Shown here: positions 33,534-53,880 of the stretch, piece after piece
Layout of the letters: each line of letters starts with the position of its first letter
Numbering within the stretch: position 1 is the stretch's first letter
Origin: a virus
IMG/VR virus record: IMGVR_UViG_3300042288_002007
Span: 1-60,060 of that record
Direction: 5' to 3' (one strand)
Length of the DNA stretch: 60,060 nucleotides
The notes under the pieces: model-generated
Databases searched by the model: none
Told to the model about the DNA's origin: nothing
What the model saw: the letters and a program-made list of their open reading frames with translations, nothing else
Position numbers and translations under genes: made by a program

Positions 33534-34254
33534 AGATTCTCATTTTCAGGTAGTAATTGATAAAGATGCGAGTTCCCCAAACCCCCAAGTCGCTATATGG
33601 AAAGGTCAGCATAGATGTGTTGCCGAAAAGTTTTTACCCGACGATAAGACACCTACCCCAGAAAGCTGTGGAGAAGCCGTCATCAAATATCAGTTAGCAG
33701 GTGACAGGGGGCATTATTCAGTTCTCAGAAAAGCCTTTGTTAGTTTCCACTGCTTAGGTTTTCCCCATAGTGTCGTGAGTCAAATCACAAGACATCAAGA
33801 TTCAGCTTTTCTTGTTCAGTCAATGCGGTATACAGGACAAAGAATTGTTGATTGTGCTGAGGGTAATATTCCTATTGAAGATGTTTTTTATTTTCGACCG
33901 GTGGGTAGTTATTGCGATCGCCAAGGCAACAAATATGATTATACCAATGCCGATTTACTGGATGATAGAGTAGGTTCTTATGCTTCTGCGGTTTTGTACA
34001 GTGAAAAGATTCAAAATGGACATTCCGAGGAACACGCTAGAGATTTTTTAGCCTATAACTTCCGTCAGGATTTTGACCTTAGTGGAGACTTACAAGCTAT
34101 TTGGCATTTGCTAGACCAGCGCACCAAAGCCGATTCTCAAATAGAAGTCAGAACTCTAGCTTGGATGATATTAGATTGCTTGAAAGAATTTACCCCTGAA
34201 CTTACCCAATGGTATTTAGAAAATCGTGCGGGTAAAGCTAGACTTGCTCCTTGA
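33517..34254 (+). CDS. thyX: FAD-dependent thymidylate synthase ThyX
   Basis: A 245-residue protein. The ThyX motif, normally RHR-x7-S, reads RHQDSAFLVQS (around residue 91), so the second Arg is Gln. MRYTGQR and the C-terminal stretch VRTLAWMILDCLKEFTPELT support the call. ThyX methylates dUMP using methylene-tetrahydrofolate and NADPH with FAD. A good site (GGTTGGAGAAAG) precedes the start ATGATG; the second ATG is also possible. With dcd and the DUF3310 gene it forms a dTTP-synthesis operon. Confidence 0.9.
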   Translation: MMQLIKDSHFQVVIDKDASSPNPQVAIWKGQHRCVAEKFLPDDKTPTPESCGEAVIKYQLAGDRGHYSVLRKAFVSFHCLGFPHSVVSQITRHQDSAFLVQSMRYTGQRIVDCAEGNIPIEDVFYFRPVGSYCDRQGNKYDYTNADLLDDRVGSYASAVLYSEKIQNGHSEEHARDFLAYNFRQDFDLSGDLQAIWHLLDQRTKADSQIEVRTLAWMILDCLKEFTPELTQWYLENRAGKARLAP

Positions 34255-34463
34255 TGTTTAACGCGATCGCCGCGCTGAACACCAAAAGAAATTATTTTTG
34301 CATAGAGAGAGATGAAAAGTATTTTGAGATTATGAAAAATAGGATTGATGATTGGCACTCTCAATCTGGACTTATCCAAAATGATCAAGTGCGATCGCCT
34401 CATCTCCAAACCAACAAAGTTATAAGCATAGAGAAGCATAAGCAACTATCACTATTTGGTTAA
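34254..34463 (+). pseudogene. C-terminal remnant of a DNA methyltransferase
   Basis: A 69-residue ORF starting in the thyX stop (ATGA). Its N-terminal part AIAALNTKRNYFCIERDEKYFEIM followed by KNRIDDW matches the end of N4/N6 type DNA methyltransferases, after the GSGT motif, but the catalytic region is missing. It ends KQLSLFG, a beta-clamp-binding type motif. Either it is a degraded methyltransferase or the tail has been kept as a small clamp-binding protein. Confidence 0.55.
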
Positions 34464-34502
34464 TCCATCAAAAGCATTGATATTACTGCACTCTATAACT
34501 CA

Positions 34503-34608
34503 TGAGTACAGAATCATTTTCATAGTGACTATGATTTAATTTCTTTTAATCCAAGAGAAGAATTAAATTAAATAGCTTGTGAGTCTGATAAAAATGATTC
34601 TGTACTCA
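34503..34608. repeat. 106-nt structured inverted repeat (three-way junction)
   Basis: Perfect 18-bp arms: TGAGTACAGAATCATTTT at 34503-34520 and its complement at 34591-34608. Inside are a hairpin CATAG-TGA-CTATG at 34521-34533 and an imperfect one formed by TTTAATTTCTT and AAGAATTAAA. The whole can fold as an outer stem with two inner hairpins. Possibilities are a small RNA, a replication or recombination site, or a MITE-like remnant. I found no target-site duplication. It fills most of the 34464-34636 gap, which otherwise holds nothing I can name. Confidence 0.6.
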
Positions 34609-34636
34609 AAGTTTACGCAGCAACGCTTTCAGACGC

Positions 34637-34666
34637 TTGACAATTATTGAGTAAATAGCTTAGAAT
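34637..34666 (+). promoter_or_regulatory. Sigma70-type promoter
   Basis: TTGACA at 34637-34642 and TAGAAT at 34661-34666 with an 18-bp spacer, the best consensus promoter seen in the window. Transcription would begin near 34673 and read the gene at 34762 through a leader of about 90 nt. Confidence 0.65.
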
Positions 34667-34679
34667 GTGCATAACGGAC

Positions 34680-34715
34680 AAAACGCCCCAGTGTTTTTCG
34701 CACTAAGACGTTTTT
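34680..34715 (+). promoter_or_regulatory. Leader hairpin with U-run (attenuator-like)
   Basis: AAAACG (34680-34685) pairs with CGTTTT (34709-34714) around an inner AGTG/CACT stem (34690-34693 with 34701-34704), and the right arm runs into TTTTT. It lies right after the predicted transcription start. It may act as an attenuator or a stabilising 5' hairpin. A ribosome binding site (GAGGAA) follows before the ATG at 34762. Confidence 0.4.
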
Positions 34716-34761
34716 CTTTATCTGCCCGCTCGACCTCTACCACAGACCGAGGAAATAATAA

Positions 34762-35643
34762 ATGAATCATACTGCAAACTTGCTCCAGTCACAAGGTACA
34801 ACCGTACTCAGTCAGATAGAAATTGCCGAAACCCGCGAATTAGCGTTTGAATTTGCCAACAGCTTAGACAACAAACAACTCCTAACTCAAATGGGGATGT
34901 TCAACGCCTACGCTTGGAGAGCCGCCATAAATCACGGAGCGCTCTACTACGAAGTGGACAAATACAGAATTAGTTATCCAGAGTGGAACAACTTGCTCAA
35001 CTGCTCACACCAAGGAAAACTAGAAATTGTTGTGGCTACTGAGTGGCTACAGGAATACATGAAGGAAAACTGGAAAGGCGCGTGCCACAGTGAAAACACC
35101 CTAAGAAAATATCGCAAACAGCACGTAGGACTAGGATTAATCTACTTTGACATCGAGAATCGCCCCAAAGGCGCATATTGGGGAAGTAGAAATGGGGAGA
35201 AGGGACACGCCACAGCTACACCACCAAAATTAGAAAAAGTAGACTTGCCCAGAATCTTGATTTTCTATCAAGTTTGCGATCAAATCTACAGAGACAGACT
35301 AAACCAAAAACTCATGAACTCTGAGGACGTAACCGCGTTCGACTGTATGCCCTCACATGGTGGCATGGTCATGGTTGAACTGTATAATGCTCTGAATATC
35401 AGCGATTTTCGGGGTAATGTTGGAGCATCAGAAATAGTTGCCCAAGCACAAGAGGAAGTAGCGATCGCAAAACCTCGCGTAGCTTTCAGTTGGAGGAATA
35501 ACCCTAAAAATTACTTTGACCCGGCAATTTGGAAATATTTGGTTGAGAGTGCCAAATTTGTAGCCAGTCAGGTCAAGGAGGTTGTTATAGAAATAGCTTC
35601 TGAACTGATGCCACTTGGCACTCTTGATGAAGTTCCATATTAA
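34762..35643 (+). CDS. Hypothetical protein under strong promoter (293 aa)
   Basis: A soluble protein I do not recognise. Features: many Trp and Tyr residues, a HSENTLRKYRKQHVGLGLIY segment that may be a helix-turn-helix, and a C-terminal part ending KNYFDPAIWKYLVESAKFVA and a long helix. It has the best promoter in the window and a clear ribosome binding site, so it is probably made early or in quantity. It is followed 11 bp later by the primase zinc finger gene, hinting at a replication role. Confidence 0.65.
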   Translation: MNHTANLLQSQGTTVLSQIEIAETRELAFEFANSLDNKQLLTQMGMFNAYAWRAAINHGALYYEVDKYRISYPEWNNLLNCSHQGKLEIVVATEWLQEYMKENWKGACHSENTLRKYRKQHVGLGLIYFDIENRPKGAYWGSRNGEKGHATATPPKLEKVDLPRILIFYQVCDQIYRDRLNQKLMNSEDVTAFDCMPSHGGMVMVELYNALNISDFRGNVGASEIVAQAQEEVAIAKPRVAFSWRNNPKNYFDPAIWKYLVESAKFVASQVKEVVIEIASELMPLGTLDEVPY

Positions 35644-35654
35644 TAACTAAAAAT

Positions 35655-35966
35655 ATGACAGAAAGAATACACCCAGGCACTATCGAAGAAGTAAAAGCGC
35701 GTGCTGATATTGCCAAAATAATATCAGAATATGTAGTTTTAACTGAGCAGGGTAAAGACCTCGTTGGTAGTTGCCCATTTTGTAAGGAGCAACCCAAAGC
35801 TAGTTTTCGTGTTAGTCCAGTCAAAGGTATGTACTACTGCTTTAACTGCCACGAAGCTGGTAATTCAATTAAATTCTTAATAGGTATTCAATCTCGACCG
35901 TTCTCTGATGTAGTAAAAAGCCTAGCAGAGAAGTTTCAAATTCCGGTTAAATTGTTGGGGAAATAA
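35655..35966 (+). CDS. Stand-alone primase-type zinc finger protein
   Basis: A 103-residue protein matching only the N-terminal zinc-binding domain of DnaG: IAKIISEYVVLTEQGKDLVG, SCPFCKEQPKASFRVSP, YYCFNCHEAGNSIKFL. The ligand set is CxxC...CxxC instead of the usual CxxH...CxxC. The TOPRIM catalytic domain and helicase-interaction domain are absent, and no continuation is found downstream. It may load or stimulate another primase, or be a decoy. DnaB is coded far away on the other strand. Confidence 0.8.
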   Translation: MTERIHPGTIEEVKARADIAKIISEYVVLTEQGKDLVGSCPFCKEQPKASFRVSPVKGMYYCFNCHEAGNSIKFLIGIQSRPFSDVVKSLAEKFQIPVKLLGK

Positions 35967-36004
35967 TAGCGATCGCACAAAAAGCACATAATTAGGAGGA
36001 AATA

Positions 36005-36298
36005 ATGATTGTTGCAGGAAAATTAGAGGTAACAGCCAAAATCACTGAACTACCCAAATCATCCACTGACAAGAACGGGTGGCATGAGTTCTTTGTGAAT
36101 TGTGACAGCACGAAAATCAGGGTTAAAGTAAAACCTAAAGTCTGGAATAAGCTGCTTCATGCCGATGCAAATTACCCTATGTGGGTGGCATCAATCACGG
36201 GTAAAGTAGGTGAACCAATATCAGGCGGTTTTAATGTCATCGAACCTGCTATCCAAGTCTACGAGAAAAAGCCCAAGCCCCCGAAGGAAGAAAATTAA
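36005..36298 (+). CDS. Small conserved cyanobacterial protein, sometimes named FinO-like
   Basis: A 97-residue protein with an excellent ribosome binding site (TTAGGAGGAAATA). Pattern GKLEVTAKITELPKSS, IRVKVKPKVWNKLL, WVASITGKVGEPI, then a Lys/Pro tail. From memory, similar small proteins in Nostocales are labelled fertility-inhibition FinO-like; I am not sure of the label. The beta-rich look and basic tail would suit a nucleic-acid-binding protein. Confidence 0.6.
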   Translation: MIVAGKLEVTAKITELPKSSTDKNGWHEFFVNCDSTKIRVKVKPKVWNKLLHADANYPMWVASITGKVGEPISGGFNVIEPAIQVYEKKPKPPKEEN

Positions 36299-36317
36299 TT
36301 GATAGGCGATCGCATTG

Positions 36318-36335
36318 AATAAGCGATCGCTTATT
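36318..36335. repeat. Perfect 18-bp palindrome around a HIP1 site
   Basis: AATAAGCGATCGCTTATT, directly after the FinO-like gene. It extends the usual 8-bp HIP1 by five bases on each side. It could form a hairpin in RNA and limit read-through into the gene at 36441, but lacks a long U-run. Confidence 0.4.
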
Positions 36336-36440
36336 ATTTCCCCGCAAAATGACGTATTTTTATAGCTTTTAAAGTGGTAATCATTTAAAATAAATACTTA
36401 TTGCTGATGTTTTAAAGCTGTTTATTTACAATATATTCTT

Positions 36441-36836
36441 GTGCAATTTGAAATTGATCGTAACAAGATAAATGAATTAAAAAATATGAGTAATTACAGA
36501 AAAACTCATATTTGCCAAGGCACTTCTGTCTCCATGTGGGGAAGATGGATAAGAGACATACACTCCCCTGGCATCCGAACTTTAGAAGATATATCCAAGC
36601 ATGGTGGATTAAACCCAGCAGAATTAGCGATCGCTATTCTAGAACTTCGACAAGAATACCTGGAAAGTCAATCTTCTGATTACTCATTTGAGCGTCAGGT
36701 GGAAGAGATGAGTGAGGAGCAGTCGAAAGAACTTTTAGTAAAGTTGTATAAACAGATGACAGAGTGTGGGATAACCCATCTGCCTGAGCGTGATTCTGAT
36801 AAGTGTACGCTTCCTGAGAATGTATTAGTTAGCTAA
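36441..36836 (+). CDS. Hypothetical protein, possible DNA-binding (131 aa)
   Basis: A GTG start at 36441 gives 131 residues; an ATG at 36486 is an alternative, and neither has a clear ribosome binding site. The region CQGTSVSMWGRWIRDIHSP through LEDISKHGGLNPAELAIAI reads like a helix-turn-helix in an XRE-like arrangement. The C-terminal half is acidic and helical. It may be a regulator. It is followed by a hairpin at 36849. Confidence 0.55.
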   Translation: MQFEIDRNKINELKNMSNYRKTHICQGTSVSMWGRWIRDIHSPGIRTLEDISKHGGLNPAELAIAILELRQEYLESQSSDYSFERQVEEMSEEQSKELLVKLYKQMTECGITHLPERDSDKCTLPENVLVS

Positions 36837-36848
36837 TATTTTCTATCC

Positions 36849-36870
36849 ACCCATTTATTACTAAATGGGT
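36849..36870 (+). terminator. Hairpin after the 36441 gene
   Basis: A perfect 9-bp stem ACCCATTTA / TAAATGGGT with the loop TTAC, 13 bp after the stop codon. There is no U-run, so termination efficiency is uncertain; it may act as a 3' stabiliser. Confidence 0.5.
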
Positions 36871-36887
36871 AGATACTATTAAACAAA

Positions 36888-36896
36888 TGCTATAAT
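36888..36896 (+). promoter_or_regulatory. Extended -10 promoter box (TGCTATAAT)
   Basis: TGC TATAAT, 23 bp before the ATG at 36920, so the leader would be about 17 nt. No good -35 hexamer is visible at 17 bp, as is usual for extended -10 promoters. Confidence 0.5.
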
Positions 36897-36919
36897 TCCA
36901 ACAAATTACTAATTAAACT

Positions 36920-37162
36920 ATGGCTACCAAGAAAGAACCACTAGAAATAATTGAGGAAGTTAATACTTCAGATTGGCGATCGCTTCCTGTCGTTCCCGTA
37001 CTAAAGAGCGATCGCCGTCAATTATTAATTGATAATCTTGTACCAGCAATATTATCAGGGTTGAAACTTGACTTGGACAAAATACCAAGCCAAGAACAAA
37101 GAAACAAGATTGTTAACTTTGCTGTCAAATTAGCAAATGATGTAATAGCTGCAACTAATTAG
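36920..37162 (+). CDS. Hypothetical small protein (80 aa)
   Basis: An N-terminal acidic part, then a likely helical C-terminus (RQLLIDNLVPAILSGLKLDL, FAVKLANDVIAATN). Two HIP1 sites lie inside the gene. It has its own extended -10 box. Its stop overlaps the stop of the convergent minus-strand gene by 4 bp. Family not recognised. Confidence 0.5.
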   Translation: MATKKEPLEIIEEVNTSDWRSLPVVPVLKSDRRQLLIDNLVPAILSGLKLDLDKIPSQEQRNKIVNFAVKLANDVIAATN

Positions 37163-37653
37163 GGTCTGGGTATTACGCCGTTACAAATGTAGCTGTACAT
37201 TCTCTGACTTGCGCTATCTACCTCGCGTCTAATAGGCTCAAACTCAAGAGTTTCATATTCTTCTTTCCCCTTGAGTTTACCCTTGTAAGTAACTGATTCA
37301 GACTTATAAGCGATCGCGTAATTATTGCAATCAATAACTACTTCGTCGTCAAACCTGTACCCGTGAGAGAATATTGTCACTTGCAGGAACGGCTTACTCA
37401 TTCCACCGGTGACAGTAATATTTTTCTGAATATAGAACTTTGCTACTACTTTTTTCCCTTCCCTGCTTGTCTCATTCCTCTTACCCAAATACAAAAAAGA
37501 TGGCTTGGATGTCACTGTCAAGCACTCTTGCTGACCTGTCTGAGGGTTCACCCAGTAATTTGCACAGGATTGAGCAGCGGCAGGGGAGTTAAAAGTACCA
37601 ACCGAAGCGATCGCTGGCAGTAGTCCCAAAACAAGTCCTAAGAAGTATTTCAT
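37159..37653 (-). CDS. Secreted protein with signal peptide (164 aa)
   Basis: The N-terminus MKYFLGLVLGLLPAIASVGT followed by FNSPAAAQSC is a clear Sec signal peptide with an AxA cleavage site near residue 27, so the product should reach the periplasm or outside. The mature part is beta-rich with two Cys pairs possible (Cys30/44 and Cys110/157 by position). It lies on the opposite strand to its neighbours, between the early block and the terminase, like a lysogenic-conversion or host-derived cargo gene. Function unknown. Confidence 0.7.
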   Translation of the reverse strand: MKYFLGLVLGLLPAIASVGTFNSPAAAQSCANYWVNPQTGQQECLTVTSKPSFLYLGKRNETSREGKKVVAKFYIQKNITVTGGMSKPFLQVTIFSHGYRFDDEVVIDCNNYAIAYKSESVTYKGKLKGKEEYETLEFEPIRREVDSASQRMYSYICNGVIPRP

Positions 37654-37732
37654 TATTCCCTCTGAATGTGTTATTTATAAATCAAGTATTATTAATAATA
37701 TTACGGAATTAACCACTTACTAATAATTAAGG

Positions 37733-38233
37733 ATGTCTGATAAACCCATATATGAAAAACTAGAAACCGAGACACAAGTAGCTTATGAAGCTTTCTGTGT
37801 TTATCGTGATATGGGTTCATCACGGAGTGTCCCAAGGGTGCGAGATGAGATCGGTGGTACTAGTAGAAGGTTAGAACAATGGTGTTCTAAGCATAGTTGG
37901 ATTGCAAGAGCCGACGTTTATGACACAGATCAAGAAGCGATCGCTCGACAAATTTTAGAGGAAGAAAATAGAGAATCATATAGAGAAAAGTTAAGAAAAT
38001 ATCGCCAAGAAAATGAAGAAATTGGCAATGCACTTCGAGCAACTGCCGTAATTGTATTGAAGAAATTTAGAACATTTGCTAATGAATTAAATCCCAAAGA
38101 TATTAAACCTAGCAATGCTGCTAATATAGTTAGGTCAATAGATACTTGTTTGACGCAAGGCGATCGCTTGTTATCCGATTCTTTGGCAATAGAAAAACTA
38201 TTACAGCAAATGAGTTCTGATGAGGAAGAGTAG
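37733..38233 (+). CDS. terS: Terminase small subunit
   Basis: A 166-residue protein directly in front of the large terminase and overlapping it by 14 bp. YEAFCVYRDMGSSRSVPRVR and RRLEQWCSKHSWIARADVYD form a helix-turn-helix typical of small terminases (W..R...YD), followed by a coiled coil for ring assembly and an acidic tail (MSSDEEE). It would recognise phage DNA and stimulate the large subunit. Confidence 0.8.
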   Translation: MSDKPIYEKLETETQVAYEAFCVYRDMGSSRSVPRVRDEIGGTSRRLEQWCSKHSWIARADVYDTDQEAIARQILEEENRESYREKLRKYRQENEEIGNALRATAVIVLKKFRTFANELNPKDIKPSNAANIVRSIDTCLTQGDRLLSDSLAIEKLLQQMSSDEEE

Positions 38234-39818
38234 AGCTAAAGATATTATCCTTGAAGATATATATGCCGAAAATCCTTTGGTAAATTATCATTCGCAAAAG
38301 TCGGAGAAGCGATCGCATAAAGCCAAGAAAACTGCACAAGATGAGTTTCTTGAGCAAGTATGGAAACCTCAAGACGGGTTTCAACAAAAAGTGTATGAAT
38401 CAGAAGCAGATGAGCTTTTAGTGGGTGGCGCGGCTGGTCCCGGTAAAAGTGCAGCCCTGTTGATTGTCGCTACAAGGCTTCACAGGAATGCAATTATTTT
38501 TAGGCGGGAATATTCTCGTTTGAAAGACATAATTGAAAAGAGTCGAAGAATGTTGAATTCTACCAGTGGCAGATATAACAGCACCGATAAAATATGGCGA
38601 CTTCCTGGTAGTAAAACTTTAGAATTTGGTGCGGTTCAATATGAAGATGACAAGGAGAATTATCGGGGGCGTGAACATGATTTAAAAGGATTTGATGAAT
38701 TAACAGAATTTAGCCAGACCCAGTACGAATTTATTATTACTTGGAATAGATCATCTGACCCTAATCAAAAATGCAGGGTAATCTCAACTTGTAATCCTCC
38801 ATCCTCAACAGAAGGGGCGTGGATTATTGATTATTGGAGTCCTTGGTTAAAAGAAGATTATCCAGGCGATCGCGCATTACCAGGGGAACTCAGATGGTTT
38901 GCAACTTTGGATGGTGAATCAGTAGAAGTTCCCAATGGGGACCCGATTGAACATACAAATCAGGATGGGATAACAGAAACTATTATTCCCCGTTCTCGCT
39001 CATTCATCCCTGGGTCACTGGATGAAAACATCTACTTGCGAGATACCAATTACAGGGGGATGTTACAGCGATTACCTGAACCATTGCGATCGCAGCTCTT
39101 GTACGGTTCATTCAAAACTGTTGCTACAAAAGACCATCCTTGGCAGATTGTTCCAACTGAATGGTACGATGCGGCTGTAGCGAGATGGACAGCGATCGCA
39201 CCAGCACCACAATCTCATTTAGGAGTTGATGTGGCACGGGGTGGGGATTGTTATAGTGTGATTGCACCAAGACATCATCACTGGCTTGCACAGTTGATTG
39301 AGATTCCTGGTAAAGATACACCCGATGGTGATACTTTGGCATTGGAAATATTGAAGGTAATGCGATCGCAGAAAACAGAAATTAGAATTGACGTAGTGGG
39401 TGTTGGTAGTTCACCCTATGATTCTTTGCGGCGAATGAATGTTGAGCCAATTCCTATTAATGGTGGTGCTACTGTTAAGGATGAAGATGGCAACCCAAGA
39501 AAAGACAGAAGTGGTGTTTTGCAATTCTATAATTTGCGATCGTATCTCTACTGGAACATGAGAGAAATTCTTGATCCTAAATATGGGCTAAACATAGCTT
39601 TACCACCTAATCCAAAACTCAGAACACAGTTATTGGCTCATAGATGGTCGGTTACAAAAGGCAGGACTCAATTTGGGGAAATTAGAGTTGAGAGTAAGAC
39701 CGACCCACTTCTTATGAAACGACTTGGTGGGCGATCGCCTGATGAAGCAGATGCCACAGTTTACGCTTTTGGTGAGATAGAAAATGAATTGTCTTATGAG
39801 TGGATGCGGGAAATTTGA
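38220..39818 (+). CDS. terL: Terminase large subunit
   Basis: A 532-residue packaging ATPase and nuclease. Walker A is GGAAGPGKS at about residues 69-77, and LKGFDELTEF near residue 160 is the Walker B and coupling region. STCNPPS is the C-motif-like segment. The C-terminal RNaseH-like nuclease starts with LGVDVARGGD (about residue 340) and ends with RSPDEADATVYAF carrying the last acidic residues. No portal gene follows it, which is unusual: an antirepressor comes next. Confidence 0.92.
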   Translation: MRKSRAKDIILEDIYAENPLVNYHSQKSEKRSHKAKKTAQDEFLEQVWKPQDGFQQKVYESEADELLVGGAAGPGKSAALLIVATRLHRNAIIFRREYSRLKDIIEKSRRMLNSTSGRYNSTDKIWRLPGSKTLEFGAVQYEDDKENYRGREHDLKGFDELTEFSQTQYEFIITWNRSSDPNQKCRVISTCNPPSSTEGAWIIDYWSPWLKEDYPGDRALPGELRWFATLDGESVEVPNGDPIEHTNQDGITETIIPRSRSFIPGSLDENIYLRDTNYRGMLQRLPEPLRSQLLYGSFKTVATKDHPWQIVPTEWYDAAVARWTAIAPAPQSHLGVDVARGGDCYSVIAPRHHHWLAQLIEIPGKDTPDGDTLALEILKVMRSQKTEIRIDVVGVGSSPYDSLRRMNVEPIPINGGATVKDEDGNPRKDRSGVLQFYNLRSYLYWNMREILDPKYGLNIALPPNPKLRTQLLAHRWSVTKGRTQFGEIRVESKTDPLLMKRLGGRSPDEADATVYAFGEIENELSYEWMREI

Positions 39819-39943
39819 GTTAGGGGAATTTACGCGATCGCTATAAACTAAATGTAATTCGCTAACCAATAATATCCCAACTTGGTATTTCTATATTTAC
39901 ACCTATTGGCATTTATTGAAAGTGCAAAATTGTGTATTAATTG

Positions 39944-39952
39944 TGATATAAT
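39944..39952 (+). promoter_or_regulatory. Extended -10 promoter box (TGATATAAT)
   Basis: TGA TATAAT, identical to the box at 31935. Transcription would start near 39959, so the hairpin at 39958-40007 would form the very 5' end of the transcript for the antirepressor gene. Confidence 0.55.
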
Positions 39953-43020: not shown

Positions 43021-43632
43021 ATGATTTTAAACGATGCCCAGATTACAGAATTAGCTATTAATGGAATGATTACTCCATTTCAGATTCAATTAATTAGAGA
43101 AGTTGGTATTTGCGGTCATGCAGAAATGCCCAGGCAGATTAGAAAAGTTATCAGCTATGGCTTGTCATCTTATGGATATGATATTAGATTAAGTTCTAAA
43201 GAATTTAAAGTATTCAAGCATATTCCCGGTACAATTGTTAATCCCAAAAACTTTAATCCTGATAATTTAGAATCTGTAAAATTACAGCATGACTCATGGG
43301 GCGACTATTTCATTATTCCTGCACATTCCTATGGACTGGGTGTAGCGATCGAAAGATTGGAAATGCCATCAGATTTAACAGCAATTTGTATAGGAAAATC
43401 AAGCTACGCACGTGCGGGGATAATCGCAAATCTTACACCAATAGAAAGTCAGTGGCGTGGAAATTTAACTATCGAGATATCTAATTCATCAAGTGCAGAT
43501 TGTCGGGTTTATGCTAATGAAGGTATCTGTCAATTGTTGTTTTTAAGAGGTAAGCCCTGCGAAGTTTCCTATGAAGATAGACAGGGTAAATACCAAGATC
43601 AACCCGAAGAAATTGTACTAGCAAAAGTATAA
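43021..43632 (+). CDS. dcd: dCTP deaminase, second copy
   Basis: A 203-residue protein with a strong ribosome binding site (AGGGGAAACT). It aligns along its whole length with the copy at 32699: ISYGLSSYGYDIRL, SYGLGVAIERLEMPSDLT, CIGKSSYARAGI, GNLTIEISNSS and YEDRQGKYQDQPEE. The differences are spread out, so the copies diverged some time ago or one was imported. One may have shifted specificity (dCTP deaminase, dUTPase, or a bifunctional form). Confidence 0.9.
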   Translation: MILNDAQITELAINGMITPFQIQLIREVGICGHAEMPRQIRKVISYGLSSYGYDIRLSSKEFKVFKHIPGTIVNPKNFNPDNLESVKLQHDSWGDYFIIPAHSYGLGVAIERLEMPSDLTAICIGKSSYARAGIIANLTPIESQWRGNLTIEISNSSSADCRVYANEGICQLLFLRGKPCEVSYEDRQGKYQDQPEEIVLAKV

Positions 43633-45716: not shown

Positions 45717-45926
45717 TTATCCTTCCTGATTTTCTAGTAATTGATTGTTTGCGATCGCCACCTCTAACGCTTCTGTCACTTTTTCTTTGTCCCCAGAGAA
45801 CTCAAACAAATCAGAAGAAATTAATACTACTGATGGTTCACCGAATGGGAAAACCATTTGCATAACAACTTCTGTTTCCGTGAGGTTGTAATGGATAGCT
45901 GAATACTGTTCAAATAGTTCAGTCAT
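45717..45926 (-). CDS. Hypothetical small acidic protein (69 aa)
   Basis: The product begins MTELFEQYSAIHYNLTETEV and is acidic throughout, with a beta-like VVMQMVFPFGEPSVVLISSD segment. It stops 1 bp before the ASCH gene and has a good upstream site (AGGAGAAAATC). Not recognised. Confidence 0.55.
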   Translation of the reverse strand: MTELFEQYSAIHYNLTETEVVMQMVFPFGEPSVVLISSDLFEFSGDKEKVTEALEVAIANNQLLENQEG

Positions 45927-45935: not shown

Positions 45936-46328
45936 CTATTTAAAAAGTGAAAGTTGGATTGAATTAATTTGATGTCTGTGGTGTTTCTCTAAATACTCCA
46001 TTGCAGTATTGAGGCTGGGCGTTACTGATTCTGCCCAGCGAGGTGGAGCAATTTGTTTTTTCTCCATCTCACTACAGCATTCGTCAAATAGGTTGGCAGC
46101 ATCTAGAAATGAAGTCACTGCATCAAAAGCCAATCTATTTAGCTTTGCTCTAACTCTATTCTTGGTGGCAGTATTTGAGCCGTTCCAGAAAATAGAGTTA
46201 AACACCTTGCTATAAGCTTCCGCATAGGATACGAAAAGGGTTAATTCCAGTTTCATGGATATTAGTAATTCATGGTTGCTAGGGATTTTTTCTAGTAAGC
46301 AATGAATTACACACTGAGGTATTAGCAT
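45936..46328 (-). CDS. Hypothetical protein with C-terminal clamp-binding-like motif (130 aa)
   Basis: The start was set at the ATG overlapping the upstream stop by one base (TAATG), not at an earlier in-frame ATG inside the upstream gene. The product is helical and Cys-containing (LRFV-type helices; ANLFDECCSEMEKKQIAPPR), and four-helix-bundle-like (AMEYLEKHHRHQI). It ends SIQLSLFK, which matches the bacterial beta-clamp-binding consensus QL[S/D]LF. It could be recruited to the sliding clamp. Confidence 0.6.
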   Translation of the reverse strand: MLIPQCVIHCLLEKIPSNHELLISMKLELTLFVSYAEAYSKVFNSIFWNGSNTATKNRVRAKLNRLAFDAVTSFLDAANLFDECCSEMEKKQIAPPRWAESVTPSLNTAMEYLEKHHRHQINSIQLSLFK

Positions 46329-46594
46329 TAAAGTAAATCGGAATATTCTGGAAATCCTTCCACCCTTTGATAGTCGCCGACGCAAGTATCGCACCAGTCC
46401 TCAAAAATGTCACCGCTTCCCCTGCAAAAGGGCATCAGCCTATGACATCTTAGACACTCAAAATAATCACCTGGATTGCAACCCCAAGAACACAATCGTG
46501 ACCGTGTTTTTCTGGAATGACACAACAAGGGAGGTCTTCCGATAAAGCCAAGCGCAACTTGCTTGGAATTTAAAATTGCTATTCGTAAATTCAT
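46328..46594 (-). CDS. Small zinc-binding protein (88 aa)
   Basis: Cys-rich: CSWGCNPGDYFECLRCHRLM and DWCDTCVGDY give a set of CxxC-type pairs that could bind zinc. The start has a good site (AGGAGAAACC). Similar small Cys-rich proteins are common in cyanobacterial phages and plasmids without known function. It lies between the N6 methyltransferase and the clamp-motif gene. Confidence 0.6.
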   Translation of the reverse strand: MNLRIAILNSKQVALGFIGRPPLLCHSRKTRSRLCSWGCNPGDYFECLRCHRLMPFCRGSGDIFEDWCDTCVGDYQRVEGFPEYSDLL

Positions 46595-46602: not shown

Positions 46603-47292
46603 CTAGTACAAAAAAGTTGTCGAAGGGTTTTCCTTCCCTAATCTGATGTCAAACACAGCATCATAACATTGTCGCCCTGACATCATTTTGGGCTTTCTTG
46701 AAAGTGCGTTTATCATGTCCTTCCCGTTGTCTAATTTCTTGGGAGTTTTACTGCAAGGAACTCCATTAATTAAATAGTCAACTCGCTTGGGTATACGATA
46801 AACGTGATGGATATGTGCATCCAATTCATTCCAAACTTTTGCTCTTGATTGAGCGCAATTCCAATCTAGTGGCATCAAGAATAATAATCTTGCTGTGGGA
46901 TTATCGGGATTGAGTAATTTGAGTGAGTGCGCGATCGCCTCCATGCACAAACTAAATGGTGGATTAGTAACAACCAAATCATAAACTCTTAAATTGCCTT
47001 TGATTGTGAATGTTTCAAAGAAATCCATTCCTTCCCAGACGACTAAGCCACGATTACGTCTATCGTTCCATTCAAGTATTTTTCGAGCGCGAGATGGCTT
47101 TATTTCTACTGCGTCAATATTGCGATCGCTGGGCAGATATTTAACAATTTGTCCACTTCCTGCAAAGGGTTCAAGGATGTTTTTGTCTGTTGGTAATACT
47201 AAACTTGCGATCGCCTTAGCTTCTTTGTCAGGAGTCTCGTAATCGTCGTTAGTAAACTCTTCAACTGACTGAGATAATGATAGCTGATTCAT
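46603..47292 (-). CDS. N6-adenine-type DNA methyltransferase
   Basis: A 229-residue protein. Motif I is EPFAGSGQI, an acidic segment DAVEIKPSRA follows, and motif IV is NPPF, giving a class I N6-adenine type enzyme without a recognisable target-recognition domain. It begins MNQLSLSQ, near the clamp-binding consensus, at the N-terminus rather than the C-terminus. It would protect phage DNA or modify host DNA. It overlaps the upstream Myb-like gene by 4 bp. Confidence 0.8.
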   Translation of the reverse strand: MNQLSLSQSVEEFTNDDYETPDKEAKAIASLVLPTDKNILEPFAGSGQIVKYLPSDRNIDAVEIKPSRARKILEWNDRRNRGLVVWEGMDFFETFTIKGNLRVYDLVVTNPPFSLCMEAIAHSLKLLNPDNPTARLLFLMPLDWNCAQSRAKVWNELDAHIHHVYRIPKRVDYLINGVPCSKTPKKLDNGKDMINALSRKPKMMSGRQCYDAVFDIRLGKENPSTTFLY

Positions 47293-47930: not shown

Positions 47931-48181
47931 TCTTCTTCCTCATACTCTTCTAGTTGCGGATAGTTTGTGGCTGTTTTATTGAGTGCTGTAAACAGGCTTC
48001 TTGTGATATGCCTTTCTACTTCCAATAACTGAAACTTTTTCTTGGATAATGCTTCTTGGCATTCCCCGTATTTGACAATTGAATTTGTAGAAGCAGCGGC
48101 TAAATAACAAAGTTGCAGTATTTCTTGTTGAAGCCATTCTTGCTGTTCAAGCATCATTCTTAGGCTTGGATTCTCGTTCAC
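47927..48181 (-). CDS. Hypothetical helical protein (84 aa)
   Basis: The start is taken as the GTG at 48181, which overlaps the upstream stop (GTGA); longer in-frame starts lie inside the upstream gene. The product (from VNENPSLRMMLEQQEWLQQE) is helical and ends in an acidic tail (LEEYEEEE). Possible coiled coil. Not recognised. Confidence 0.45.
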   Translation of the reverse strand: MNENPSLRMMLEQQEWLQQEILQLCYLAAASTNSIVKYGECQEALSKKKFQLLEVERHITRSLFTALNKTATNYPQLEEYEEEE

Positions 48182-48441
48182 AGGTTTGACTCCTTTTCGA
48201 TTGGATGCCCAAGTGATGAATCTAGTGATAAGCATTTTGACAAGTGAATGCGATCGCTTTCCAATGCTTTTAAATTGTCTAAAGTCTGGTTTATATACCA
48301 TAATCTTTGTCGAACCTCTCTCAATTGTTGGTGGTAGTAATCGCCGTAAATCTTGATGTCCTTAGTAGCTAATTCGTGGGAATATTTTTCCTGAAGCTGT
48401 TCTAGGTAAATTTTGAGTGTTTCGAGTTTGGTAATGTCCAT
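48178..48441 (-). CDS. Hypothetical coiled-coil protein (87 aa)
   Basis: The start is set at an internal ATG (MDITKLETLKIYLEQLQEKY); the longer in-frame form overlaps the upstream gene more. The product is almost all helix with two predicted coiled coils (YYHQQLREVRQRLWYINQTL). It overlaps the upstream gene by 40 bp. Not recognised; may oligomerise. Confidence 0.45.
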   Translation of the reverse strand: MDITKLETLKIYLEQLQEKYSHELATKDIKIYGDYYHQQLREVRQRLWYINQTLDNLKALESDRIHLSKCLSLDSSLGHPIEKESNL

Positions 48442-48644
48442 AAAAACGAAAGTCCGCATTCAGGGAAAATAACAACATGAAAAGTTTCGGGAATATCTAG
48501 CTCTTCTAAAGTGAAATTAGATAATGATTGGGAATCAAAAGCGATCGCATCTTCCCGGACAACTGCATGATTGTCATAACCTGCATTGACATTTTTGAGT
48601 TGATAGGAAGTTAGGGTGAATGAGCGATCGCTTATTTTCTTCAT
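48402..48644 (-). CDS. Hypothetical protein (80 aa)
   Basis: A mixed beta and helix product (MKKISDRSFTLTSYQLKNVN; FTLEELDIPETFHVVIFPEC). It starts at the last base of the DnaB gene, so it is coupled to it. A role with the helicase is possible only by position. Confidence 0.5.
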   Translation of the reverse strand: MKKISDRSFTLTSYQLKNVNAGYDNHAVVREDAIAFDSQSLSNFTLEELDIPETFHVVIFPECGLSFLWTLPNSKHSKFT

Positions 48645-50053
48645 TAGTATTGGGGTTTGACTAAGTTTTTGAACTCTGCGAATTGAGAATTGAAAAGTAA
48701 TTTAATTACTCCCGTTCCGGTATCTCTGCCTTTGGCAATATTTAATTCTGCAATGCCTTTGTCTGGAGTATCTTCGTTGTAATACTCATCTCTGTACAAC
48801 AAAAATACAAAATCTGCGTCCTGCTCCAAAGCCCCCGACGCTCTCAAGTCACTCATCATCGGTCTTCTGTTTGTCCGCGCATCAACACCTCTATTTAATT
48901 GAGCTAATCCAAATACCGGACACCCAAAGCCATCCTCTTTAGAAGATATTTCTTTGAGAAACCTCGATGCTTTTGTTATCTTTGCGTATTCATCATTAGC
49001 CCCTTCCTCTGTTCCTGCTAAGATGTGAATATGATCTATAAATATCGCGCCTGGATTACTACCCGTTGTAGCGATGAAACGGCGGATACTTGCGGCAACA
49101 TCAAGAACATCCATCTTCTTTTTGTCGCAAATATACAAGTTTGACTGTTCTTTCTCGTATTGAGCCATAGCCAAAGAAACTTTCACCCAATCATCTTCTC
49201 TCATCATCTTTGGTTGTTTCAAGACAGTCCCTTCAATTCGACTTTCCTGCGCTATCAATCTCCTACATAACTGCTCCGCGTTCATTTCTAGGGAAAAGTA
49301 GTAAATATCTTTTGGCTGTTCGCGTGACATATTCGCGGCTGCTTTTAAAGCAAATCCCGTTTTACCCGAACCTGGCCTACCACCAACAACTATGAACTCA
49401 TCTTCATTAAAGCCACCTGTTTTGTCGTCAATATCATAAAATCCTGATTTAATTGGTTGAATTTCCCCTGCCAGCTTCTTCTCCATTTCTGAATACGTTT
49501 CCTGCATATATTCAGAAACGTGAACCAACTTTGGGCGATCGTCTACGAGTGTTTGGGATAAGTTAAACACTGATTTTTGGGCTTCATCTAAAACCACTGA
49601 AAGTTTTATCTCTGTGGCATAAGCTAATTTGATGTTCTGCTGGGAAACACGAATTAACTCTCGACGCAAGTATTTCTCCATAACCAGCCCCGCTAAAGCA
49701 TCAATATTCACTGCGGAAACTGTGCAGTCAACAAGTGCGGCTAATTTACTTCTACCACCGACTAGAGTTAAGTAATTTTTCCCAGTAACTTTATCAATCT
49801 TGTCCGTCAGCCACAATGTTACAAAACGTAAGTCAGTTGGCTTTTGCTCTCTATAGAGTTCAAGCATGGCCTCATATATTTTTCTGTGATGCTCAAGATA
49901 AAAGATTTCTGGAGAGATGCGATCGCATATTCGGGTGATAGCTTCAGGGTCTAGTAGTATCCCCCCTAAGATTGCTTCCTCAGCCTCAATATTTTGGGGT
50001 GGCAAGCGGTCAGGACTGTTGCTTGCGAAGTCTAGTTCATTTTCGGTAAACAT
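48644..50053 (-). CDS. dnaB: Replicative DNA helicase DnaB
   Basis: A 469-residue protein. The N-terminal DnaB domain begins PPQNIEAEEAILGGILLDPE, with the expected YLEHHRKIYEAM. Walker A is GGRPGSGKT at about residues 224-232 and Walker B-like FIDHIHIL near 335. The C-terminal DLRASGALEQDADFVFLLYR with an arginine finger-like region completes the RecA-like core. No intein. It unwinds DNA at the phage fork. Its only primase-type neighbour in the window is the lone zinc finger at 35655. It lies 41 bp from the upstream replication gene. Confidence 0.92.
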   Translation of the reverse strand: MFTENELDFASNSPDRLPPQNIEAEEAILGGILLDPEAITRICDRISPEIFYLEHHRKIYEAMLELYREQKPTDLRFVTLWLTDKIDKVTGKNYLTLVGGRSKLAALVDCTVSAVNIDALAGLVMEKYLRRELIRVSQQNIKLAYATEIKLSVVLDEAQKSVFNLSQTLVDDRPKLVHVSEYMQETYSEMEKKLAGEIQPIKSGFYDIDDKTGGFNEDEFIVVGGRPGSGKTGFALKAAANMSREQPKDIYYFSLEMNAEQLCRRLIAQESRIEGTVLKQPKMMREDDWVKVSLAMAQYEKEQSNLYICDKKKMDVLDVAASIRRFIATTGSNPGAIFIDHIHILAGTEEGANDEYAKITKASRFLKEISSKEDGFGCPVFGLAQLNRGVDARTNRRPMMSDLRASGALEQDADFVFLLYRDEYYNEDTPDKGIAELNIAKGRDTGTGVIKLLFNSQFAEFKNLVKPQY

Positions 50054-50094
50054 GGCACTTTATCCTGGATTTTAAAAGGGGTTGTTGAAGCGAG

Positions 50095-51363
50095 TTATTT
50101 TGACCAGTCCCAAGAGGGGAATTTTTCTTTTGCAAATTCGTACCAAGGCTTGTTGTCCTTGTCTTTGGCGAAAAAGACTTCTAGACTCCTAGCAGCACGA
50201 AACTTTTCATGCAGGATTTCGTGGTATGAGTCATGCCACCCCTTGATATGCCTGGGAGTTTCCGCTAATTCCTCTGCTGATTCCGTAGAAACTTGGTCTA
50301 CAGGGCGATCGCAGTAAGTCATTAAGTTTGTCCATCCACCCTTTGTTTGCTCCCACAGATTGATAGTTGCGATCGCCCAGTCATATTTTTGAGCCGGTGT
50401 AGCTTTGTCTTTTACTGCCAGTTGAGTTGCGAGTTTTTTGACAACTTCTGAGTTGAACGTTCCAAACTCTTTTGTTTTAGTGAGCGATCGCCATGGCCAT
50501 CTCCATTGACTCCATTTGTATTTTTCGTTGTAGACAGCTAACAGTTCCGACGGTGGCTTTGCATCTGCCAAATCAGGACTATCTAAGCACAAATCTACTA
50601 ATTCCCACACATTTGCAGCTTGGGCGTAAATGTTTTGAAGCGGGCGGGCGGAACACCCGTCTCCATGAGGGGTTATCTGTTTTACCGAAGATTCTGTTTT
50701 TGTAATCAACGAAGCGGTTGATTCTGAACTACTCCTCTCTTCCTCTTTAATTGAATTTAATTCAATTAAGTGCGCTTGCTCTTTTGTTAAAACAGACTGT
50801 TTATTAAGACTGTTAGAAGAATATAGATCATCCTGTAAATTCAACGACTCGTGCGTTTTTTTTACTAGCTCGTGCGTTCTTTTTACAGGTTCCAACGTTT
50901 TTTCTACTGACTCGTGCGTTCTTTTTACCGCCTCGGAATTTTCAATGCTTTGAGAGTTCCACCACTGATCTAGGGATGATTGAATTAACTCAGTATTGAA
51001 CTTATATTCCTTGGTTCTGTCAAAGTCATGCTTTGATTTTCGAGAATCAATAAACTCCCATACAATAAGCTTCTTGAGCGATCGCCTAATGGAAGAATCG
51101 CCATAAGCGTCAAGCATACCTTCACTTATGTCTGTTATTGTCTCGTACAGCCATAAACCAGGCGGTTGCATTAAGGGTATATTCCCTCTTCTGCTTTGCT
51201 CGTTATAGCTTTCTACCCGCTTAATTTCTTCTAGTCTACAAATAGTCCAGAACTCAAAAAGACTGAGTATCTGGGATGCACAATCATCACCCTGGCAAAT
51301 TGCCTGATAATCTTCGTGGCGATAAATGTATTTCCCATAATGCCTTATAAGATGTTTTGCCAT
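50095..51363 (-). CDS. Phage replication protein, helicase-loader or initiator-like (422 aa)
   Basis: The ATG at 51363 has a strong site (TGGAGGTGTGTA); an upstream TTG in frame lacks one. The N-terminal part (KYIYRHEDYQAICQGDDCAS, EFWTICRLEEIKRVESYNEQ) and residues ~80-130 look like a winged helix. Residues ~150-185 carry a short degenerate repeat (VKRTHESVEKTLEPVKR, then THELVKKTHES). The C-terminal domain has LAVYNEKYKWSQWRWPWRSL. Directly upstream of dnaB, it fits a phage initiator or DnaB loader. It has no ATPase motif that I can see. Confidence 0.6.
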   Translation of the reverse strand: MAKHLIRHYGKYIYRHEDYQAICQGDDCASQILSLFEFWTICRLEEIKRVESYNEQSRRGNIPLMQPPGLWLYETITDISEGMLDAYGDSSIRRSLKKLIVWEFIDSRKSKHDFDRTKEYKFNTELIQSSLDQWWNSQSIENSEAVKRTHESVEKTLEPVKRTHELVKKTHESLNLQDDLYSSNSLNKQSVLTKEQAHLIELNSIKEEERSSSESTASLITKTESSVKQITPHGDGCSARPLQNIYAQAANVWELVDLCLDSPDLADAKPPSELLAVYNEKYKWSQWRWPWRSLTKTKEFGTFNSEVVKKLATQLAVKDKATPAQKYDWAIATINLWEQTKGGWTNLMTYCDRPVDQVSTESAEELAETPRHIKGWHDSYHEILHEKFRAARSLEVFFAKDKDNKPWYEFAKEKFPSWDWSK

Positions 51364-51510
51364 TACACACCTCCAAAGATGTGCAACAATTCGCCCGATC
51401 GCTTGACGGGCATAGAAATATTCGATATCATCCAAATAACTCCTATGGCTTTGAGATGGATTAGGGGTCGCCCCTCGACTACTTGCAATAGTGCGGGGGA
51501 AATATTGAAA

Positions 51511-51705
51511 CTACTCTGCCAATAACGACTGAGCGTGTTTGAGAAGTTCATCAGCGATCGCGGGATTACTGTCAAGACAGTGAGCGATCGCCATAAGTGA
51601 GGTTTGCAGTTTAACAGGAACTCTACAAACTGTAGTTTTTCCTGATTTCCATTTGAATTTAAACTGTGATTCCAATGGAACAGGGATTGGTTTTGGGTTT
51701 GACAT
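51511..51705 (-). CDS. Small hypothetical protein (64 aa)
   Basis: The product is MSNPKPIPVPLESQFKFKWK, then a short helix-rich part (MAIAHCLDSNPAIADELLKH). Two HIP1 sites lie inside the gene. It is separated by about 150 bp from the replication gene downstream; that gap holds nothing recognised. Not recognised. Confidence 0.5.
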   Translation of the reverse strand: MSNPKPIPVPLESQFKFKWKSGKTTVCRVPVKLQTSLMAIAHCLDSNPAIADELLKHAQSLLAE

Positions 51706-51828
51706 ATCCCTCTCTGTGTTCTATGTGAATCATGATACTCTAATCGCGTGTAACAAGTCAATAGGGAAGTCAAAAATCTTTTCATACTAAGTGCAAAGTG
51801 GTGTAGTGGATATGAAAAAAGCGCAAAC

Positions 51829-52899
51829 TTATGGAGTTAATTCAAAAAACACCCCTTTCCTGGTTGCAGGTCTAGGCGCGATCGCAATTTTTCCCTGCCC
51901 CTGAAGTTCTGCAAGGATTTTGCTGACTCCTATAGTGCATCTCCTGAGATTCCCTAGATGCTGAGAAATTTCTTGTTTATTCTTGGGTCCATCCTTGAGA
52001 AAGTTCAAAATTTTGTGATGCGGTTGATTGTTGTTGAAGTCAAAAAATGCTTTTTCGTTAGTAGTAGACACAAACTTTTCTCCATGCTCCTGATAATCGA
52101 AACAGGAAACAGCATCACCTCTGACCACTAAAAACCGTAGACAATAACGTATGCTTGTCTTGCTTTTCTTGCCTTTGACCTTGCTATAGATTTCTGTAGC
52201 AGAAGTTATTTTATCGCTTGCATCTAAAATCGCTTTTACTTTTTCAATTGTTGGTAGGCGAGAAACGCAAACACCCCGATATTTCTCTAGAACTTCAGCA
52301 TGAGAGTGATGAGCATAAATTCTATTTCTTTGTTTACCGACATAAACAATTTCCCCATCTTCTACCAACCTTGTTGTTGTTATCCAAGTTGAAGTCGGGA
52401 GCGATCGCAGCTTCCTAGCAATGTCTGATAATGAAAATCCTGCATTGTTTCTTTTTAGGAGATCAAGAATTTCCTTCTGTAATAAACCGCTGCCAAATTC
52501 CCTGTATAACTTAATTTTTTTCTTGATTTCCTTGGGCTTATTTTTGATTTCTTTGGGTTTATTTTTGATTTCTTTGGGTTTATTTTTGATTTCTTTGGGC
52601 TTATTCTTGATTTCTTTGGGTTTATTCTTGATTTCCTTGGGCTTATTTTTGATTTCTTTGGGTTTATTTTTGCGGACTCTAGGAGTTTTGAGTTTAGCTT
52701 GCTTAACTGAAGATGGTTCAGTTTTTGGTTGCGATATGATAGTCAACCGTTGTTGATTTCTCAATGTTGTGACGCAATCCAAGCATAATATTTTAGACTC
52801 AGATTCGTGATTACAGCCTCGATATCTGTGGCAGCTTCCACATCTTCCAAAAGTTTTTTCTATTTGTTTGACTGTTATATGTTCGAGTGTTTGCAGCAT
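51829..52899 (-). CDS. Zinc-ribbon and winged-helix protein with heptad (NKPKEIK) repeats
   Basis: A 356-residue protein. An N-terminal CGSCHRYRGCNH and CLDC pair suggests a zinc ribbon. Residues ~80-130 contain seven copies of NKPKEIK, a basic linker encoded by 21-bp repeats. The C-terminal part has at least two winged-helix domains: GSGLLQKEILDLLKRNNAGF with SLSDIARKL, and HHKILNFLKDGPKNKQEISQ. It is likely a DNA-binding replication or regulatory protein whose linker length varies by repeat slippage. Confidence 0.65.
   Translation of the reverse strand: MLQTLEHITVKQIEKTFGRCGSCHRYRGCNHESESKILCLDCVTTLRNQQRLTIISQPKTEPSSVKQAKLKTPRVRKNKPKEIKNKPKEIKNKPKEIKNKPKEIKNKPKEIKNKPKEIKNKPKEIKKKIKLYREFGSGLLQKEILDLLKRNNAGFSLSDIARKLRSLPTSTWITTTRLVEDGEIVYVGKQRNRIYAHHSHAEVLEKYRGVCVSRLPTIEKVKAILDASDKITSATEIYSKVKGKKSKTSIRYCLRFLVVRGDAVSCFDYQEHGEKFVSTTNEKAFFDFNNNQPHHKILNFLKDGPKNKQEISQHLGNLRRCTIGVSKILAELQGQGKIAIAPRPATRKGVFFELTP
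52521..52670 (-). repeat. Tandem 21-bp repeat encoding NKPKEIK
   Basis: Seven consecutive 21-bp units (core TTGATTTCTTTGGGTTTATT on the plus strand) with a few synonymous differences, inside the gene at 51829. Repeats of this kind are prone to slippage, so copy number should vary between relatives. Confidence 0.9.
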
Positions 52900-52956
52900 G
52901 GTAATTATTTGTAGTGTGTGGAGCGATCGCTAATTAAATGCGATCGCTTGCTGAAC

Positions 52957-53190
52957 TTACGCAGATGGTCTAATCTGGTCAAGATAAAAGGCTTTAAACA
53001 ATTTGCCTTTTACTGACAATTCAATGAAGCTCCACTTCGCTCCTGTGGGGGCTAAACTTGGGGTATAGAACTCATGGAAAATTGCCTCTACCCAACCATT
53101 TGCTTTGGGATGTTTATATTGAATCTTGTCCCCATTTTTCAGATTGGATTCTACTAATTGAGTAGATTGTGTTTGTGTTAGAATAGTCAT
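52957..53190 (-). CDS. Hypothetical protein (77 aa)
   Basis: Beta-rich, with an SH3- or chromo-like pattern (NGDKIQYKHPKANGWVEAIF, HEFYTPSLAPTGAKW, IELSVKGKLFKAFYLDQIRP). A good site (GGGGGAATCTCATA) overlaps the stop of the upstream 45-residue gene, so the two are coupled. Not recognised. Confidence 0.55.
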   Translation of the reverse strand: MTILTQTQSTQLVESNLKNGDKIQYKHPKANGWVEAIFHEFYTPSLAPTGAKWSFIELSVKGKLFKAFYLDQIRPSA

Positions 53191-53203
53191 TATGAGATTC
53201 CCC

Positions 53204-53341
53204 CTAATGCTTGTTGAATTGTTGTTTAGCAGGCATTATTTTTTGAGTTTGAACTACAAAAAATAGAATGCCGAGTAAGGTTATCAGCATTGATTCAAGC
53301 CCGATAATAAATAGAGTGAAAATCCACAAGTGATATTGCAT
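53204..53341 (-). CDS. Small single-helix membrane protein (45 aa)
   Basis: The product begins MQYHLWIFTLFIIGLESMLI and continues TLLGILFFVV, a hydrophobic segment of about 26 residues with few charges, then a polar tail (QTQKIMPAKQQFNKH). It sits 2 bp after the upstream gene and its stop lies next to the ribosome binding site of the gene at 53190. Too short for confident typing; a holin or regulatory membrane peptide is possible. Confidence 0.5.
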   Translation of the reverse strand: MQYHLWIFTLFIIGLESMLITLLGILFFVVQTQKIMPAKQQFNKH

Positions 53342-53343
53342 GG

Positions 53344-53880
53344 CTAAAATAATGATTGTTGAGCGCTTGCTTTTCTTGCACCATCGAGATAGGCGATCGC
53401 TTCCTGTTGAAGTGCCATAACTAAGTCGTAATCAAAGGTATCTTGAGCGATCGCATAGGGTGAGGTTGGGCAAGGGTAAGCGCCGTTAATTTCACATTTT
53501 CCAGTGATAGTTATGCCGATATTCTCTTCTGTGTGTTTGAAGGAAACGCCGATTATTTGTCCTTCTTCCCACTGGATAGAATCAAGCCCAATTGCATTTA
53601 TCAGAAGTGGTAAAAGTTCATCCATGCTGCCGTAAAATTCCTCCCTAGCTTCTTCTTTGGAGGTGAAAGTAGCGGAAAACCAACCGTCTTTAGCTTTGTC
53701 GTGAGCTACTTCATATTCGATGGTAATTAGTTCAGCATCTTCAAGTCTTTTTGCTTTTACTTTGGTAATTCTGCGTTCTGCTGATGGGCTTACAGTGGCT
53801 ATTTCTTCTAGCGGTTCAAATGCTTCAAGATGATCAATTACTGGCTCTACTGGTTTTGTCGCTACTGCTGTTGATTTCAT
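53344..53880 (-). CDS. Hypothetical protein ending in a clamp-binding-like motif (178 aa)
   Basis: Mixed alpha/beta; residues ~45-150 form the main domain (LEDAELITIEYEVAHDKAKD; FSATFTSKEEAREEFYGSMD; IIGVSFKHTEENIGITITGK). The last residues are ASAQQSLF, one mismatch from the beta-clamp consensus QL[S/D]LF. It may be a clamp-recruited factor or a clamp inhibitor. Confidence 0.55.
   Translation of the reverse strand: MKSTAVATKPVEPVIDHLEAFEPLEEIATVSPSAERRITKVKAKRLEDAELITIEYEVAHDKAKDGWFSATFTSKEEAREEFYGSMDELLPLLINAIGLDSIQWEEGQIIGVSFKHTEENIGITITGKCEINGAYPCPTSPYAIAQDTFDYDLVMALQQEAIAYLDGARKASAQQSLF

Follow-up and report, generated by a model that had tools for sequence, protein, structure and literature searches.

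Predicted sliding clamp-binding motifs at the ends of small proteins and DNA methyltransferases in a relative of Aphanizomenon phage CL131

Locus and terminal peptides

Peptides resembling the clamp-binding motif (CBM), through which bacterial proteins contact the sliding clamp DnaN, lie at the ends of several predicted proteins in a 60-kb virus record (IMG/VR IMGVR_UViG_3300042288_002007, positions 1 to 60,060; hereafter the window), a relative of Aphanizomenon phage CL131 (42% of a 20-kb query aligned, at 84.5% identity). Two forms of the motif have been published, the pentamer Q-phi-x-[L/M]-[F/L] and the hexamer Q-phi-x-[L/M]-x-[F/L], with QLxLF the strongest and Ile tolerated at position 5 (PMC11139829); consensus and clamp pocket definitions were taken from PMC11139829 and PMC12309361. 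An earlier note on this DNA had pointed to four such peptides. The C-terminal KQLSLFG (product at 34254), IQLSLFK (45936), and AQQSLF (53344) were confirmed in place, the first two as exact consensus and the third as near-consensus, with Gln at position 2, where Leu is preferred. The fourth, the N-terminal MNQLSLSQ of the product at 46603, was also found where described but lies outside both published forms, as it has Ser at position 5 and Gln at position 6.

The gene at 45936 (45936..46394, minus strand) encodes a small helical protein with a predicted C-terminal CBM, assigned by sequence and homolog comparison: QLSLF (45942..45956, minus strand), then a terminal Lys. Homolog comparison makes the ATG at 46328 (130 amino acids [aa]) a more likely start than the GTG at 46394 (152 aa). 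Homologs occur in CL131 (gp074, 91% identity), other phages (63-65%), and Nostocales plasmids (26-31%), and in an alignment of nine sequences Gln147, Leu148, and Leu150 were invariant, with the final motif position held by Phe, Leu, or Ile or replaced by the hexamer form. QLSLF is present in the window, CL131, and record G005, with QLTLL and QLPLF in G003 and G001; among the plasmids, QLALPL and QLTLNL fit the hexamer, and QLSLI, QLTLI, and QLILI carry Ile at position 5. CBMs are known in just these two forms, pentamer and hexamer (PMC11139829). The motif codons vary synonymously among relatives. An AlphaFold model gave a helical bundle in which residues 126-130 had a predicted local distance difference test score (pLDDT) below 50, from a shallow alignment. 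A true CBM in this protein is likely. In G001, the homolog (L049:11301-11909) reads past QLPLFK into a homolog of the next gene (window 45717-45926) as one fused open reading frame (ORF).

The gene at 53344 (53344..53880, minus strand) encodes a phrog_9403 protein (E 1.3e-31) with a CBM-like motif on a low-confidence C-terminal tail, QQSLF at the extreme C-terminus (53347..53361, minus strand), where relatives carry QLSLF, QQSLF, or QPSLF. The model has a strand-rich core, a helix at 151-166, and residues 172-178 at pLDDT below 50 (again from a shallow alignment). Against Q-phi-x-[L/M]-[F/L], the window copy has Gln at position 2, and the relatives in G003 and G004, which end in RQLSLF, match. 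More distant relatives (40-53% identity) carry KQQSLFDQ or KQPSLFT followed by differing tails, and the QPSLF of G006, G007, and G009 resembles the MutL motif QPLLI (PMC11139829). Q-x-S-L-F is kept throughout while a three-residue indel and variable residues directly precede it; position 2 varies (Leu, Gln, or Pro), so affinity is uncertain. A true CBM is probable here. Searches for relatives on plasmids and for matches among PDB sequences found none. In both the 45936 and 53344 families, the motif is on a predicted accessible, flexible segment (C-terminal residues at pLDDT below 50, shallow alignments) and is conserved beyond its neighbors, with a loss in G013 and the position-2 changes as exceptions.

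The gene at 46603 (46603..47292, minus strand) is predicted to encode an N6-adenine DNA methyltransferase (phrog_799, E 2.1e-24) with a catalytic NPPF (in VVTNPPFSL) and an S-adenosylmethionine (SAM)-binding LEPFAGSGQI. Its N-terminal QLSLS (47272..47286, minus strand) is a degenerate motif with Ser where relatives carry the position-5 Phe: the hydrophobic residue at position 5 or 6 is missing from the window copy, and the MNQL[T/A]LF of relatives matches. Five relatives (54-57% identity, tblastn) start with MNQLTLFE or MNQLALFE, and MNQLSLSQ is common to the copies in the window, G001, and G005. By sequence comparison without a rooted tree, the motif may be ancestral and decayed in one branch or gained in the other, either being admissible. 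We rejected the window copy as a clamp binder, since the Phe is missing.

The ORF at 34254 (34254..34463, plus strand), with QLSLF at 34443..34457 (plus strand) followed by Gly and a stop, is a recombinant relic in which the tag of a formerly complete methyltransferase survives. It consists of about 65 C-terminal residues of an N4/N6 DNA methyltransferase, joined to sequence from downstream of thyX, and it lacks DPPY and most of the SAM-binding motif. Three observations lead to this reading: its matches to N4/N6 methyltransferase families (phrog_67/3008) are confined to their C-terminal ends; its first codons are identical to sequence downstream of thyX in L024 (57/57 nucleotides) through the octamer GCGATCGC (34263..34270, plus strand), where similarity stops, which marks that octamer as a recombination junction; and CL131 retains just its last ~24 codons, with conservation about equal to that of the following non-coding DNA. 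On homology and the junction, we rejected 34254 as an independent functional protein. In G007, G010, and G014, the related genes are full-length (305-313 aa); their products contain DPPY and terminate in QQLSLF or HQLSLF, and the G010 product matches PF01555.

The octamer GCGATCGC, the cyanobacterial HIP1 element, occurs at 119 sites in the window (e.g., 34263, 34391, and 45203) against 0.25 expected from dinucleotide shuffles. The ThyX-like gene beside the relic (33517-34254, plus strand) is found in eight viral loci at 83-92% identity; it is not annotated in the matching region of CL131, whose sequence rejoins that of the window at GCGATCGC near 34391.

Enrichment of terminal motifs

Expectations for the 73 called genes of the window were set from the rate of the motif inside proteins of the phage group. 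C-terminal Q-x-[SD]-LF was observed 3 times against 0.004 expected (Poisson 1e-8), and the strict pattern Q[LM][STDAGNE][LM]F was observed twice against 0.005 (P 1e-5). The wider gene set held 1,324 genes (simple gene caller) from 20 records of the phage group and Nodularia phage 2AV2, grouped into 587 BLAST families; a motif was counted as terminal at no more than 4 residues from the C-terminus or with its start within the first seven residues. The strict motif was terminal in 15 proteins from 5 families. Whole-protein shuffles (300) gave a mean of 0.15 such families (maximum, 2), and 59 permuted orders of the same five motif elements averaged 0.08. The comparison with random expectation that the earlier note had proposed for related phages thus came out far above chance (5/587 families against 0.15), the family count being safer than the protein count, as it is less affected by the way the records were chosen. 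A seed-independent scan of IMG/VR with CAR-YTG-AGC-YTG-TTC-TAA, a single codon pattern encoding QLSLF and a stop, returned 27 exact matches, 9 of which lie at the end of an ORF of 100 aa or more (0/21 for a permuted pattern); the 9 carriers include a C5 methyltransferase, a protein resembling phosphoadenosine phosphosulfate (PAPS) reductase, and an ImmA/IrrE-like protein.

On the internal-rate, shuffle, and permuted-motif controls, we rejected a chance origin of the tails. The relic nature of 34254, the missing match at 46603, and the shortness of the tails would suit an account in which only chance matches and a methyltransferase remnant are present, yet shuffles, permuted motifs, window statistics, and homolog conservation make this very unlikely for 45936 and 53344, and overall we consider it most improbable. 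The tails might instead be conserved for another cause, such as packing of the last helix, another peptide partner, or a degradation tag, and only look like CBMs. The helix predicted for 45936 does extend into the motif in the model; however, proteins with no relation to one another carry the motif, some at the N-terminus and some at the C-terminus; it switches between the five- and six-residue forms, and its Gln and hydrophobic pair are kept while neighbors vary. Such a cause is unlikely.

At roughly three chances in four (0.74), at least two protein families (45936 and 53344/phrog_9403) bear functional CBMs in their terminal QLSLF-type peptides, as do relatives of two methyltransferases, N-terminally in the 46603 family and C-terminally in the N4/N6 family behind 34254. 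The sequences also point to methyltransferases as recurrent CBM carriers in the phage group.

Several observations weigh against this. One of the four window carriers is a relic (34254), and another has no motif match (46603). The 45936 homolog in G013 has lost the motif (QLKIQ); QQSLF and QPSLF in the 53344 family deviate from the preferred Leu at position 2; and among relatives of 46603, those in G003 and G013 start with MNQLLSIRS and that in G011 has no such segment. Foldseek searches of the PDB with the 45936 and 53344 models gave no confident match to a solved fold. Protein counts are inflated, because many of the related records came from searches seeded with ThyX and three of the proteins studied here, and the 9 IMG/VR carriers contain repeats of one gene and one doubtful ORF.

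Three further sets of proteins have termini of this kind. In phage 2AV2, a 2OG-Fe(II) oxygenase-like (AlkB-like) protein (L097:15085-15675) ends in KQLDLF and a helicase-like protein (L099:14966-16408) in KQLNIF. DUF5131-like (PF07505) proteins of three relatives (L067:12058-12813, L071:15736-16494, and L062:963-1718) all end in KQVALF(N/K), a candidate clamp motif.

Host and phage clamps

The earlier note had assumed the clamp of the host. Complete DnaN proteins with three domains (PF00712/02767/02768) and a clamp pocket are encoded by G007, G009, and G013, the last scoring 341.9 bits on TIGR00663 (cutoff, 137.65) and matching 150 of 50,697 phage records. These clamps keep T172, G174, H175, R176, L177, P242, N320, Y323, M362, and P363 (Escherichia coli DnaN numbering); changes from the E. 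coli pocket are Ile for L155 in G007 and Gln for R246 and R365. The DnaN of Nodularia phage 2AV2 has three domains and a degraded pocket (A at 175, H at 323, and F at 362). CL131 ORF145 (gp145) is annotated as DNA polymerase III subunit beta (PMC6293099, a paper without the word "clamp") and covers no more than the N-terminal and central clamp domains; a clamp-like protein of G001 is more divergent still, and both have an eroded pocket. No clamp gene was found in the window, which is a genome fragment (TIGR00663, PF02768), and TIGR00663 found no dnaN on the eight plasmids that carry the 45936 family, so the only clamp available there would be encoded elsewhere in the host. A scan of genome contigs with the 45936 and 46603 alignments returned no relative, which places cyanobacterial chromosomes outside the survey. 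DnaE or family A polymerases above cutoff were absent from the 13 records searched.

Two loci with clamp-like genes have further neighbors of note. The DnaN gene of G013 (L079:418-1995) adjoins an ORF ending in DTSEPDDIPF, a possible operon of clamp and single-stranded DNA-binding protein (SSB); an acidic tail of this sort is typical of SSB. In CL131, gp145 (L094:7009-11189) stands in a run with genes for a VWA-domain-like protein (gp146) and a MoxR-like ATPase (gp147).

With clamps in relatives and plasmids free of them, host and phage clamps are both possible partners. The tails could dock on phage-encoded DnaN rather than on that of the host, a phage clamp then having its own CBM clientele. 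The complete DnaN of G007, G009, and G013 with a mostly conserved pocket, the annotation of CL131 gp145 as polymerase III beta, and the divergent clamp-like protein of G001 speak for this. Against it, the window fragment has no clamp gene, the closest relatives (CL131 and G001) carry divergent clamps whose pocket is eroded, a 2AV2 protein ends in QLDLF although the clamp pocket of that phage is degraded, the eight plasmids have 45936 homologs without dnaN, and G013 has an intact pocket but degenerate copies of the motif. We looked for, and did not find, a tendency of intact motifs to go with an intact phage-clamp pocket; G013 is the counterexample. We regard exclusive use of phage clamps as possible but on the unlikely side.

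What became of the proposal that the phage systematically docks its own proteins on the host clamp can now be said in parts. Recurrence above chance stands, as does conservation of the motif in two families down to ~30-40% identity. Systematic use is unsupported, given that 34254 is a relic and the N-terminal motif of 46603 is missing a key residue, and the choice of the host clamp is tempered by relatives that encode their own DnaN. Competition with host polymerases for the clamp, also raised there, drew no supporting evidence and is graded as possible. A stronger version would make the small tailed proteins inhibitors that displace the host polymerase from the clamp and halt host replication, as SocB does. 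The 45936 product is small, helical, and equipped with a consensus motif, and there are precedents in SocB of Caulobacter and phage Gp168 (PMC9690074, PMC11139829); but its homologs reside on cyanobacterial plasmids, in 3/8 cases with an antirestriction gene nearby, where a maintenance role fits better than poisoning, and the other carriers in the phage group are enzymes. We hold inhibition to be quite unlikely.

Other features of the window

The neighbors of 45936 are an adenine methyltransferase, an ASCH-type protein, and a C5 methyltransferase. Two intact dCTP-deaminase-like paralogs (32699-33307 and 43021-43632, both plus strand) share 70% protein identity, and their CL131 counterpart is annotated as dCTP deaminase. 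In the protein encoded at 51829-52899 (minus strand), the heptapeptide NKPKEIK occurs about seven times in tandem.

Discussion

If the peptides are CBMs, the flexible tail would place its Gln in subsite II and its Leu-Phe in subsite I of a DnaN-type sliding clamp, and this contact would tether the carrier to newly replicated DNA; we infer binding, tethering, and function from the known role of the motif, the sequences themselves showing its presence, enrichment, and conservation. Tethering of a methyltransferase would couple modification to replication, and progeny DNA would thereby be marked against host restriction. The clamp used may be that of the host, that of the phage where its pocket is intact, or both. 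A fuller version, in which adenine and N4/N6 methyltransferases and small accessory proteins are all clamp-tethered through terminal motifs, in some members on phage DnaN, and nascent phage DNA is methylated at the fork before host enzymes can restrict it, is offered tentatively and is rather doubtful.

The bacterial motif QL[S/D]LF is well known from polymerases and repair proteins of the host and from transposases (Dalrymple et al. 2001, as reviewed in PMC11139829; PolC QLSLF in PMC12309361), and the 45936 product and relatives of 34254 carry the same terminal pentapeptide as PolC, the hexamers resembling Hda QLSLPL. The carriers differ: in place of polymerases and mismatch-repair proteins, they are DNA methyltransferases and other proteins of phages and plasmids, and their binding is predicted. 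Use of the motif by mobile elements is likewise known from Tn7 TnsE, insertion-sequence transposases, and SocB as an inhibitor (PMC4549789, PMC9690074). TnsE and the transposases share with the present case a mobile-element protein that reaches replicating DNA via a host clamp motif; the difference is that here the carriers are modification enzymes and small proteins of tailed phages, and relatives encode their own clamp. Replication-coupled methylation by Dnmt1 on PCNA (PMC9690074) also involves a DNA methyltransferase with a sliding-clamp motif, but Dnmt1 performs eukaryotic cytosine maintenance through a PCNA motif, whereas here the motif is the bacterial one, the enzymes would be phage adenine or N4/N6 methyltransferases, and the coupling is predicted. 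The plasmid enzymes M.EcoGIX and M.BceJIII are, according to an excerpt of PMC7736820, mobile-element methyltransferases tied to replication and antirestriction; in that excerpt they differ in associating with DNA polymerase I, the clamp being only a possible intermediary. Phage-encoded DnaN (CL131 ORF145 and 2AV2) belongs to the same protein family as the clamps of relatives, with no such gene in the window. A search of the open-licence PubMed Central (PMC) literature found no account of such motifs in methyltransferases of phages, which is no proof that none exists; within that literature the motif is known and its phage carriers appear new.

If the reading is right, the CBM would give phage methyltransferases and two further families a place of action, the replication fork, and would provide a prokaryotic analogue of Dnmt1 on PCNA. 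Co-occurring phage-encoded clamps raise the question of a phage clamp's own clientele, and terminal CBMs would offer an inexpensive hint to the function of phage proteins that lack annotation.

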